Shown here: in pieces, positions 44,955 to 49,070 of the stretch | How the letters are laid out: each line of letters begins with the position of its first letter | How positions within the stretch are numbered: position 1 is the first letter of the stretch | DNA from: Clostridium sp. | Lineage (GTDB): Bacteria; Bacillota; Clostridia; Oscillospirales; Acutalibacteraceae | Direction: 5' to 3' | Assembly: GCA_023663865.1 (NCBI GenBank) | Contig: JAMPGU010000003.1 | Coordinates: forward strand, 62,001 to 126,000 | Length of the DNA: 64,000 bases | Position numbers and translations under genes: made by a program | Notes under the pieces: model-generated | The model's database searches: none | Told to the model about the DNA's origin: nothing | What the model saw: the letters and a program-made list of their open reading frames with translations, nothing else

Positions 44955-45134
44955 ATGGATAATCTTTGTGAAAAATGTTGGTATAATGAATACGACGAAG
45001 AGCTGCAGGAGGACTTCTGCTCCCTTGTTTTGGATGAAGATGAATATGTCAGATTAATAAGCGATAAGGGCAAAACCTGCCGTTACTTCCGTCCTGACGG
45101 AAATGAATACGATATCGTCCGTAAACAAAATTGA
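44955..45134 (+). CDS. small Cys-rich DUF6472-like protein
   Basis: The product has 59 residues. It begins MDNLCEKCWYNEYDEE, then LDEDEYVRLISD, TCRYFRPDGNEYDIVRKQN. The pattern of a CxxC pair, an acidic LDEDE, a single Cys and a final RPGDEY-type basic tail fits the DUF6472 family of Clostridia, whose function is unknown. Four Cys suggest a zinc knuckle. AAGGAAAC precedes ATG and it follows the rlmA-like gene by 28 bp. Confidence 0.8.
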   Translation: MDNLCEKCWYNEYDEELQEDFCSLVLDEDEYVRLISDKGKTCRYFRPDGNEYDIVRKQN

Positions 45135-45204: not shown

Positions 45205-45447
45205 TTATTTAATTTCCTGTTCCAAATTATCAAACAGCTGTGAATCAAAAAATTCTTTAATGGTAATATCAATCCCATCACATATTTTCTTTATCGTAGA
45301 TATAGTCGGACTGTTATTTCTGCCGCTGGTAATATTGTTCAGCGTTGACTGTGTTATTCCGCTTATTGTTGCTAATTTGTTTACAGTGATATGATTTAAT
45401 TCACAAAGCTCAAGAATTCTTTCTTTTACAGCAGTTCCGATTGTCAA
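45205..45447 (-). CDS. XRE-family helix-turn-helix regulator
   Basis: The product has 80 residues. The HTH is LATISGITQSTLNNITSGRNNSPTISTIKKI, followed by the family-typical CDGIDITIKEFFDS. A TTG start at 45447 is chosen because GAGGAG lies 8 bp upstream; a longer frame lacks a ribosome site. It follows a second small XRE gene by about 40 bp, so the two are probably one transcript. Its target is unknown. Confidence 0.85.
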   Translation of the reverse strand: MTIGTAVKERILELCELNHITVNKLATISGITQSTLNNITSGRNNSPTISTIKKICDGIDITIKEFFDSQLFDNLEQEIK

Positions 45448-45488
45448 AAAATCAACTCCTCTTATATTTGAGTTATAACGCAAAAGAG

Positions 45489-45692
45489 TTAATCATCTGT
45501 TATCTCAAACAAATCATTCGGTGAACAGTTAAACAAATTGCACATAATTTCGATATTTTCATATCGGATGGATTTTGTTTCGTTGCTCACCATTTTATTG
45601 AAATTCTGATAGCTCATACCCAGCTGCTTATACAGCCAATATTTTGTTCTGCCCTGTTCCTTTAAAATATCTAATGCGCGAAGTCTAATCAT
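45489..45692 (-). CDS. small XRE-family helix-turn-helix protein
   Basis: The product has 67 residues. It is almost entirely one HTH: KYWLYKQLGMSYQNFNKMVSNETKSIRYENIEIMCNLFNCSPNDLFEI. ATG 45692 follows GAGGTG. Upstream (45715-45800) lie several short AT-rich inverted repeats such as TAATGCATTA and related TAATG/CATTA boxes, which could be its operator. Members of this group often autoregulate and control mobile elements or toxin modules, but neither is directly adjacent. Confidence 0.85.
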   Translation of the reverse strand: MIRLRALDILKEQGRTKYWLYKQLGMSYQNFNKMVSNETKSIRYENIEIMCNLFNCSPNDLFEITDD

Positions 45693-45827
45693 TAATAACA
45701 CCTCATTACCTAATGTTTCAATTAGATAATATATTATTCTGGGGGTTGATAGATAGACTAATGCATTACATAATGAATACGTTAGACATTGTTAAGATTA
45801 TGTGATTAATGAAATTTTTAATGAATA

Positions 45828-46022
45828 TCAGCTTTCGTCGATTTCACAATTATCTATAGCAAAATCGAGCATAATATTAATCAATTCATTTCTGGTACGC
45901 TGGGTTTTGCTTGCCAGCTGGTCGAGTTTGTCGGCGGTATCCGCCTTAATTCTTATGGAGAAGGTCTTGTGATTGTCATCACCTTTTAACGGCTTCTTTT
46001 GTATAACCAGCTTATTGTCCAT
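45828..46022 (-). CDS. ribbon-helix-helix (Arc/CopG-type) DNA-binding protein
   Basis: The product has 64 residues. After a basic N-terminus comes KTFSIRIKADTADKLDQLASKTQRTRNELINIMLDFAIDNCE, a beta strand plus two helices as in CopG/Arc repressors. GAGGTGATT precedes ATG. No toxin gene is adjacent, so it is more likely a solo regulator. Its start lies 27 bp from the promoter of the divergent small RNA, which it could regulate. Confidence 0.85.
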   Translation of the reverse strand: MDNKLVIQKKPLKGDDNHKTFSIRIKADTADKLDQLASKTQRTRNELINIMLDFAIDNCEIDES

Positions 46023-46048: not shown

Positions 46049-46077
46049 TTGACAATAAACGAATTATATGTTATGAT
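46049..46077 (+). promoter_or_regulatory. consensus promoter of the small RNA
   Basis: TTGACA and TATGAT are separated by exactly 17 bp, among the best -35 elements in the window. No open reading frame follows for about 390 bp. Confidence 0.8.
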
Positions 46078-46083
46078 TTATAA

Positions 46084-46340
46084 CATAGTATATGTTAATT
46101 ATGCTGATGGATAGGTCATTATTTTCTTGGACAGTGCAGCTACAGCCTTACTCGATTTGTAATAAGTACTGCATTCCTCCAAACAAATTATGATACAAAA
46201 ACCGATGGGCTTTGGCTGTTTTCCTATCGTCATACGGTGCTGAGACTTAGATATAGCAGACCTATGTTGAAACAGTTATTACAAATTCTACCTTTTTAAC
46301 GAAAATACCCTTGTGCGTTTTAGCCTGGGGTATTTTTGTT
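46084..46340 (+). ncRNA. probable structured small RNA, about 255 nt, family not identified
   Basis: The interval has a consensus promoter, no plausible coding frame and a terminator, which together define an RNA gene. Internal complementary segments include ACATAG/CTATGT (46083-46088 with 46262-46267), ATAGGTC/GACCTAT (46111-46117 with 46259-46265), ATTTGTAATAA/TTATTACAAAT (46155-46165 with 46276-46286), ACAGCC/GGCTGT (46142-46147 with 46214-46219) and CGATGGG/CCTATCG (46203-46229, one G-U pair). Some of these cross or exclude each other, so either a pseudoknot or alternative folds exist. I see no hallmarks of SRP RNA, tmRNA, RNase P or T-box. A 6S-like RNA is possible from size and long-range pairing, but the evidence is not sufficient. 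Confidence 0.65.
46301..46338 (+). terminator. terminator of the small RNA
   Basis: AAAATACCC pairs with GGGGTATTTT around a 14-nt inner region and is followed by TTGTTTT. Confidence 0.8.
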
Positions 46341-46372: not shown

Positions 46373-46408
46373 TAGCTGAGATGCCGTTGGAGCACCTCAG
46401 CTTTTTTG
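46373..46408 (+). terminator. second terminator hairpin before polA
   Basis: AGCTGAG-A-TGC pairs with GCA-C-CTCAGCT around a short loop, with a TTTTTT run behind it. It insulates polA from upstream transcription. Confidence 0.8.
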
Positions 46409-46437
46409 TTGTAAAGATATATAAAATATGGTATAAT
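46409..46437 (+). promoter_or_regulatory. polA promoter
   Basis: TTGTAA and TATAAT are separated by 17 bp, with TGG directly before the -10. It starts right behind the second terminator. Confidence 0.75.
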
Positions 46438-46466: not shown

Positions 46467-49070
46467 ATGAAATTATTAGTTCTCGATGGTAACAGTATTG
46501 TGAATCGTGCCTTTTACGGCATTAAGCTTTTAACCACAAAAAAGGGTGAATATACAAATGCGGTTTACGGTTTTCTTACAATTTTGCTGAAGTTAAAGGA
46601 TATATGCAATCCGGATGCTGTAGCGGTAGCCTTTGATGTTCACGCGCCCACTTTTAGGCACAGCATGTATGATGCGTACAAGGCAGGCCGTCACGGTATG
46701 CCCGACGAGCTTCGTGCGCAGATGCCTGTGTTAAAGGAACTGTTAAAAAGTCTCGGCATAAAAACCTTAGAGCAGGAAGGCTGGGAGGCAGACGATATTC
46801 TCGGCACTCTTGCAGAAATTTGCCGAAAAAACGGTGACGAATGCTTTATTGCCACGGGAGACAGAGACTCTCTGCAGCTGGCGCACGGCGGTGTTAAGGT
46901 TCTGCTCGCCCGCACAAGGATGGGTCAGGCAGTTACGGATATTTATGATGAAGCTGCCATTATGGAAGAATATGGTGTTACCCCTGCCGAGCTGATTCAG
47001 GTTAAGGCATTGCAGGGTGACAGCAGTGATAATATTCCGGGTGTTGCCGGCGTTGGTGCGAAGACGGCACTTGATTTAATTCAGCGTTTTCATAACATTG
47101 ATTATATTTACGATCATCTTGACGAGCTTGAAATTAAGCCGGGTGTCAGAACGAAGCTGGCGAAGGATAAGGATAAGGCATATTTATCCCTTGACCTTGG
47201 TACAATTCGCACAGATGCCCCTGTAGATACAGCGGTTCAGGAATATGTCAACACTCCTGCGGATAATCAGTCTGCCGTGTCCCAGTTTGTAAGACTTGAG
47301 CTTTTTTCACTAATTCCAAGATTTAATCTTGACCCAAACAACGCCGTAGCAGAGGAGACGGCAGAGGCGGAAAAGCCAAGAGAAATCAGCCGATTAACCT
47401 GTGTGGACGCCGACTATCTTTTGGATAGAGTACGCGGCAAGGACACCTATTTTTATCCTGTAATCATTGACGGCAGTATCACGGATTTATATTTTTCCTT
47501 CGGTGATGAAATCATTGTTATGCCAAGTGAAACCCCGGAGTATTCCTATTTTGTACGCAATTTCTTTGCAGATAAGGATACGAAAAAGTACAGCTATAAC
47601 ACAAAAGAGCTGCATCGCCTTGCCTGCAAATATGGTGTTGAGCTGGAAAATGTGTGCGGAGACCTTATGCTTTCTGCATACCTGCTCAGACCCAGTGACA
47701 ATAATTATGACTTAGAGCATTTGTGCTTGGAATACGGCGTAAAGGTGCCGGAATTTTTAAACACCTTGGGGGAGAAGGATATGACCGTATCCCTTGCTGC
47801 TGCTGTTAAACCCTTGTTTGATAAAATGAACAAGCTGGTAGAGGATGCAGAGGAGACGGCACTTTTAACAGATATTGAGCTTCCGCTGTCAGCCGTTCTT
47901 GCAAAAATGGAATATGCCGGCTTTGAGGTAGACAGAGACGGTATTGCACAATTCGGCAAAATGCTGGGCGAAAGAATTAACGAGCTGACAACGGGTATTT
48001 ACGACAGTGTTGGCTATGAATTTAATATCAATTCACCCAAACAGCTGGGTGTGGCACTTTTTGAGGATTTAAAGCTGCCCTGCAAAAAGAAAACGAAAAC
48101 AGGCTACTCCACAAATGCCGAGGTGCTGGAGAGCTTAATCCATGAGCATCCTTGCATTTCACAGATTTTGGAATACCGCTCTATGTCAAAGCTGAAGTCC
48201 ACATATTGTGACGGACTTCTAAAGGTGATTGAGGAGGACGGACGTATTCACACGCGCTTCAATCAGGTTGAAACAAGAACAGGCAGAATCAGCTCTCTTG
48301 AGCCGAATCTGCAGAATATTCCTATCCGCACCGAGCTTGGCAGACAGATGCGTAAATTCTTTGTTGCCGGTGAGGGAAAAAAGCTGGTTGACGTGGACTA
48401 CAGTCAGATTGAGCTGCGTGTTCTCAGTGACTTGGCAAATGACGAAACCATGATAAATGCATTTAATAACGGCGATGATATTCACACAATCACTGCCTCT
48501 CAGGTATTTAATATGCCGATTGAAATGGTAACAAAGCAGATGCGCAGCAGTGCAAAAGCCGTTAACTTTGGTATCGTATATGGCATAGGTGCATTCTCCT
48601 TAGCAAAGGATATTGGTGTTACAAATAAAGAAGCGAAGCAGTATATTGACAATTATCTTTCCACCTACAGCGGTGTGGACGCATATATGAAGCGTATGAT
48701 TGATATTGCCAAGGACAAGGGCTACAGTGAAACCTTGTTCCACAGAAAGCGTTATCTGCCCGAGCTTGCATCCTCTAATCATATGATGTGTGCCTTTGGC
48801 GAGCGTGTGGCAAGAAATATGCCGATTCAGGGTACAGCCGCAGATATTATCAAAATTGCGATGGTAAAGGTTGATAAAAGACTTCGCGATGAAAATATGA
48901 AAGCCCACCTCATATTGCAGGTGCACGATGAGCTGATTGTTGAAGCACCGCAGGAGGAGGCAGAAAAAGCGTTGCAAATTGTTACAGAGGAAATGGAAAA
49001 TGCCTGCAAAATGAAGGTTTTGTTAAGAGCAGACGGTGCAATCGGTGACACTTGGTTTGACGCACATTAA
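46467..49070 (+). CDS. polA: DNA polymerase I
   Basis: The product has 867 residues. The 5'-3' exonuclease domain covers about 1-290 (LLVLDGNSIVNRAFYG, ATGDRDSLQL, GDSSDNIPGVAGVGAKTA). The middle domain (about 300-470) lacks the DxE exonuclease motif, so it has no proofreading activity, as in many Gram-positives. The polymerase has motif A DYSQIELR, motif B QMRSSAKAVNFGIVYG and motif C VHDELI. It fills gaps and removes RNA primers in replication and repair. TTGGAGC serves as ribosome site. Confidence 0.96.
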   Translation: MKLLVLDGNSIVNRAFYGIKLLTTKKGEYTNAVYGFLTILLKLKDICNPDAVAVAFDVHAPTFRHSMYDAYKAGRHGMPDELRAQMPVLKELLKSLGIKTLEQEGWEADDILGTLAEICRKNGDECFIATGDRDSLQLAHGGVKVLLARTRMGQAVTDIYDEAAIMEEYGVTPAELIQVKALQGDSSDNIPGVAGVGAKTALDLIQRFHNIDYIYDHLDELEIKPGVRTKLAKDKDKAYLSLDLGTIRTDAPVDTAVQEYVNTPADNQSAVSQFVRLELFSLIPRFNLDPNNAVAEETAEAEKPREISRLTCVDADYLLDRVRGKDTYFYPVIIDGSITDLYFSFGDEIIVMPSETPEYSYFVRNFFADKDTKKYSYNTKELHRLACKYGVELENVCGDLMLSAYLLRPSDNNYDLEHLCLEYGVKVPEFLNTLGEKDMTVSLAAAVKPLFDKMNKLVEDAEETALLTDIELPLSAVLAKMEYAGFEVDRDGIAQFGKMLGERINELTTGIYDSVGYEFNINSPKQLGVALFEDLKLPCKKKTKTGYSTNAEVLESLIHEHPCISQILEYRSMSKLKSTYCDGLLKVIEEDGRIHTRFNQVETRTGRISSLEPNLQNIPIRTELGRQMRKFFVAGEGKKLVDVDYSQIELRVLSDLANDETMINAFNNGDDIHTITASQVFNMPIEMVTKQMRSSAKAVNFGIVYGIGAFSLAKDIGVTNKEAKQYIDNYLSTYSGVDAYMKRMIDIAKDKGYSETLFHRKRYLPELASSNHMMCAFGERVARNMPIQGTAADIIKIAMVKVDKRLRDENMKAHLILQVHDELIVEAPQEEAEKALQIVTEEMENACKMKVLLRADGAIGDTWFDAH

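Follow-up and report, generated by a model that had tools for sequence, protein, structure and literature searches.

The RHH gene, the promoter and polA

The DNA analysed here is a 64,000-nucleotide stretch of a Clostridium sp. genome, referred to below as the window. Between a gene for a small ribbon-helix-helix (RHH) protein and polA, it carries an interval (46049-46340) that an earlier note, made from the sequence alone, had described as a structured small RNA. The features of this locus are the following.

45828..46022, minus strand: 64-aa ribbon-helix-helix (CopG/Arc-like) regulator, predicted to repress the shared intergenic region locally (Pfam RHH_1, PHROG 5118)
46049..46077, plus strand: sigma-70-type promoter TTGACA-17-TATGAT with an extended -10, its position and sequence kept in relatives
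46067..46087, no strand: palindromic operator TATGTTATGATTTATAACATA overlapping the -10, the predicted RHH site (19/19 against the family consensus)
46084..46340, plus strand: predicted transcript ending in a terminator, about 255 nt long, its body without a usable coding frame, relatives or a significant fold
46092..46098, no strand: third operator half-site ATGTTAA (half-sites 12 bp apart)
46155-46165 and 46276-46286 (stretch 46155..46286), no strand: 11-bp perfect inverted repeat ATTTGTAATAA / TTATTACAAAT, assessed with shuffles
46299..46340, plus strand: intrinsic terminator AACGAAAATACCC...GGGTATTTTTGTT (-19.2 kcal/mol, z -5.4)
46374..46408, plus strand: second terminator-like hairpin AGCTGAG...CTCAGCT with a T run, immediately preceding the polA promoter (weak fold, z -1.65)
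46409..46437, plus strand: polA promoter TTGTAA-17-TATAAT, its core shared by the polA-upstream regions of many genus members
46467..49070, plus strand: polA (DNA polymerase I), present in 59/60 sampled genus genomes

In all likelihood, the interval is transcribed as a unit of its own. The consensus promoter that had been read here (TTGACA, 17 bp, TATGAT) is indeed found at 46049 to 46077, with 11 of 12 consensus matches as well as the extended TG, and it is conserved in relatives. The intrinsic terminator held up equally well, as none of 300 shuffled sequences folds as stably as the hairpin at 46299-46340. In addition, the divergent gene for a DNA-binding protein that had been placed close to the -35 is the RHH gene, the start ATG of which (46022) lies 26 nt away.

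On the opposite side, the sequence ahead of polA varies across the genus, and hairpins comparable to the one at 46374..46408 occur in some relatives. Comparison of homologous polA-upstream regions, which had been proposed as a check, revealed that the element is absent from the relatives' polA loci, and a covariance model of it has no match at any of the 15 such loci searched with it. In a close relative (G023), a short hydrophobic ORF, MEQYVFIILILIFATGYILVIKKK, accompanied by convergent repeats, is located upstream of polA (L007, about 1081-1210), an arrangement that recalls type I toxin-antitoxin units.

The operator-promoter and its cargo in relatives

The 64-aa protein matches Pfam RHH_1 above the gathering score (1.5e-5) and PHROG 5118 (2.1e-10). 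Loci with RHH homologs number 148 in contigs representing one genome per species, of which the best 80 were retained for comparison (L085-L164), and their hosts, where the records carry titles, are gut and rumen Clostridia/Oscillospiraceae. The identity of the RHH protein to the top-ranked loci in other genomes is 61-74% over about 60 aa. In viral contigs, neither the RHH profile nor the exact operator pattern found a match.

Two adjacent genes of the Cro/C1-type HTH class lie downstream of the RHH gene on the same strand (45205-45701). A type II toxin-antitoxin system with the RHH protein as the antitoxin was considered and rejected, because the same-strand followers of the RHH gene are these two HTH genes and not a toxin. 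Similar HTH genes are also found near the RHH genes of L108 and L125. Past the RHH gene, away from the promoter, comes a DUF6472 gene (44955-45134). It is a module neighbour conserved in two species, as G025 (L037) has it in the corresponding place; there, a long secreted protein forms the divergent cargo, and polA lies on a separate contig.

Across gut Clostridia, RHH homologs share a palindromic family operator, TATGTTATNATTNATAACATA, in their intergenic regions, where it lies over the divergent -10. The site in the window is placed about 50 bp from the RHH start, overlaps the divergent -10 and scores 19/19, and 72 of the 81 RHH intergenic regions reach at least 14/19; the maximum among 2000 shuffles of the region in the window is 16, attained by 2 of them. 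In the 80 genus genomes, every exact operator site is located next to an RHH homolog, with a single one in this genome, and the regulation therefore looks local. Owing to the third half-site at 46092..46098, the 5' end of the predicted transcript is partly operator DNA. The widespread RHH repressor with its near-invariant operator-promoter is seen at L037 (G025), L038 (G061), L039 (G034), L040 (G004) and L085-L164.

An intact operator (at least 16/19) is present in 68 relatives, and in 59 of them it is followed, at a median distance of 27 nt, by an ORF preceded by a ribosome-binding site. A cargo ORF was defined as one of at least 40 aa that has a ribosome-binding site and lies within 180 nt, a rule set after the loci had been viewed, so that these counts are approximate; L099, for example, is counted as lacking an ORF and has a 438-codon frame slightly further downstream. 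The 59 cargo proteins fall into 38 BLAST clusters, and many of them are secreted or zinc-ribbon proteins: by simple pattern rules, 39 display an N-terminal hydrophobic stretch, a lipobox-like motif or paired CxxC. Their Pfam matches are scattered, including zinc ribbons, Cu_amine_oxidN1, DUF6591, YpsA, NPCBM, LRR_5 and others.

The window is one of about ten intact-operator loci without a cargo ORF, and no protein gene with a ribosome-binding site follows the divergent promoter in its slot. Gene-less slots recur, since about nine other relatives with an intact operator have no such ORF, and some of these slots run directly into terminators or convergent genes. A noncoding-looking stretch, GGGACATGAGGTAGGAGGATGGCGACAAAC..., is common to the cargo slots of L125 and L126, on the cargo side of the RHH gene, and may be a repeat element or a shared RNA.

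The body between promoter and terminator

The absence of a coding frame from the about 255 bp that follow the promoter, as claimed earlier, was confirmed to the extent that no frame combines a start with a ribosome-binding site. The longest forward ATG/GTG/TTG frame (33 aa, 46092-46193) lacks a ribosome-binding site, and none precedes any ATG in the interval. No start lies upstream of a 63-codon stop-free frame (46108-46296), the chance probability of which is about 0.04 according to shuffles; its codon score of -0.08 is noncoding, as compared to a mean of 0.20 and a 5th percentile of 0.02 for genes. The frames of the interval have no match in Pfam, NCBIfam or PHROG, and the matches in the genus are weak, low-identity stretches only.

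Searches for relatives of the body were carried out at several levels. With the Rfam covariance models, there are no matches in the window at the gathering score, and a relaxed search gave chance-level matches only. Such a search had been proposed earlier, with 6S, raiA, Clostridiales-1 and others as examples, and the hallmarks of SRP RNA, tmRNA, RNase P and T-box had been stated to be missing; no Rfam family matches the interval. The 6S gene of this genome is probably at G000:C60:48635-48825 (L084), a full-length candidate below threshold (29.4 bits, E 3.5e-4), and the interval was rejected as a 6S RNA in favour of this better, albeit sub-threshold, candidate.

At the DNA level, the body has no relatives in 80 genus genomes, in phages or in plasmids, nor, by BLAST only, among 394 sampled genomes of the order and 391 of the class, sets that overlap with each other and with the genus set. 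Two short matches (33 and 25 nt, E about 6e-4) were taken as chance, given that hundreds of genomes were searched. The exact pattern of a 32-nt stretch of the RNA has no match in viral contigs. A single-sequence covariance model with the predicted fold recovered only itself across the 80 genomes, and the same model likewise found only itself when run on 96 sources, made up of 80 RHH loci, 15 polA loci and the window. The body is known from a single sequence, taken from a single genome of the species, and the genus, order and class sets yielded no homologs in which covarying pairs could be counted.

The folding of the body does not bear out a structured small RNA, as it folds like shuffled sequence in addition to having no detectable relative. 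The full interval has a z of -2.6 to -2.7 against shuffles, which is due to the terminator; once this is removed, an ordinary fold is left, with z -0.64 for 46084-46298 (74 of 300 shuffles are as good) and z -0.90 for 46100-46298. As to the crossing complementary segments that had been emphasized before, the 11-bp inverted repeat is rarer than chance with P about 0.003 in shuffles, an optimistic value because the repeat was picked after several measures had been viewed; the other long complementary segments and helices occur near the chance count, and the crossing helices are marginal at most. In the minimum-energy fold, the first arm of the repeat lies around a hairpin loop and the second arm is mostly unpaired. 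Forcing the repeat as a nested helix costs 12 kcal/mol, whereas in a pseudoknot freeing the arms costs 4.5 and the duplex yields -7.7, before any pseudoknot penalty. The best pseudoknot gain is matched or exceeded by 11/300 shuffles, and the total energy by 23/300. A transposon-like reading of the repeat was set aside, as it has no other copy in the genome and no target-site duplication is apparent by eye.

Interpretation and relation to known systems

The RHH gene, which the earlier note took for a bystander, is instead the key to the locus, with the promoter being part of the RHH module. The promoter and the divergent RHH gene would constitute a single local repressor/operator/promoter module, in which the RHH protein is predicted to bind the palindrome over the divergent -10 and thereby to repress the divergent promoter. 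The protein may also repress its own promoter, as only about 60 bp separate the two divergent genes, and hence the module is probably autoregulated. The module itself is well supported by the sequence, and we infer repression and autoregulation from how the parts are arranged and from what is generally known of RHH repressors. In most relatives, the module promoter drives a variable protein gene; here, the slot contains noncoding DNA, about 200 bp in length, ahead of the intrinsic terminator, the cargo presumably having been lost or decayed. The promoter-operator would persist because it is situated inside the control region of the RHH gene itself, and the 255-nt transcript would be a by-product without a function of its own as a structured RNA.

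On balance, we favour, with moderate confidence, a local RHH repressor/promoter module with an empty or decayed cargo slot, the about 255-nt terminated transcript of which is a by-product and not a structured RNA; the transcript of this RHH-gene-associated promoter is short and probably meaningless. Several observations count against an emptied slot: no remains of an earlier protein gene could be recognised in it, the intrinsic terminator has stayed intact, as a functional transcript would need, and the inverted repeat exceeds chance expectation. Moreover, fast-evolving small RNAs can be without relatives across species. A functional small RNA is less probable, the positive evidence for it being limited to the promoter, the terminator and one inverted repeat. 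In its general form, this alternative assumes a genuine species-specific small RNA, base-pairing, structured or pseudoknotted, that is transcribed from the RHH-repressed promoter and ends at 46299-46340. It would agree with a consensus promoter and a strong terminator with no coding frame between them, and with a perfect 11-bp repeat (P about 0.003) that keeps its second arm largely free of the minimum-energy fold. However, the body fold is unexceptional (z -0.6 to -0.9), 11 of 300 shuffles equal the pseudoknot gain, no relative turned up in the 80 genus genomes, the order and class samples or Rfam, and in most relatives it is protein genes that this promoter drives, which makes such an RNA rather unlikely. 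That a species-specific, possibly pseudoknotted small RNA occupies the RHH cargo slot and is regulated there by a local repressor of its own is unlikely.

A small or decayed protein gene, with the 63-codon frame (46108-46296) or the 33-aa ORF (46092-46193) encoding the cargo now or in the past, would suit a slot that is normally filled by a protein gene, and the longer, stop-free frame (P about 0.04) ends just before the terminator. This reading is nevertheless quite improbable: the long frame has no start codon at its head, ribosome-binding sites are missing before every ATG, the codon score is that of noncoding DNA, and the database comparison offers no Pfam, NCBIfam or PHROG match next to weak, low-identity genus matches. 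If the interval were a polA leader with a regulatory role, such as a riboswitch or attenuator, its position upstream of polA on the same strand would fit, but the interval's own terminator, the second terminator-like hairpin and then the conserved polA promoter intervene, and the polA loci of relatives do not have the element, so that a leader function is very improbable.

The RHH module, the preferred reading, accounts for the presence of a perfect promoter before noncoding DNA. The small RHH repressor, its near-invariant operator-promoter and dozens of unrelated, often secreted cargo genes form a clear regulatory module in uncultured gut and rumen Clostridia, one that can be regarded as portable and local. 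A search of open papers gave no description of such an RHH operator-promoter cargo module among the titles and abstracts that matched, which is weak evidence. The structured-RNA claim adds little by itself, and the locus advises caution, in that a promoter, the lack of an ORF and a terminator are insufficient for calling a structured RNA.

Among known systems, the structured RNAs of Rfam including 6S (RF00013) resemble the interval as noncoding units from promoter to terminator, with 6S being of similar length, but the window has no gathering-score or relaxed-search match to them. Candidate structured RNAs from intergenic regions of gut bacteria (for example PMC8040213, PMC11109978) rest on comparative alignments with covariation; these candidates are also intergenic and have no coding frame, whereas the interval stands as one sequence that lacks both relatives and a significant fold. 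Autoregulated RHH repressors (CopG/Arc-like, relatives of phrog_5118) differ from the present case in that here no toxin partner or replication gene is adjacent, RHH binding is predicted, and the cargo of the divergent promoter changes among most relatives, with no coding cargo in the window. They share with it a small RHH protein, a palindromic operator over the -10, a short divergent intergenic region and one local site in the genome.
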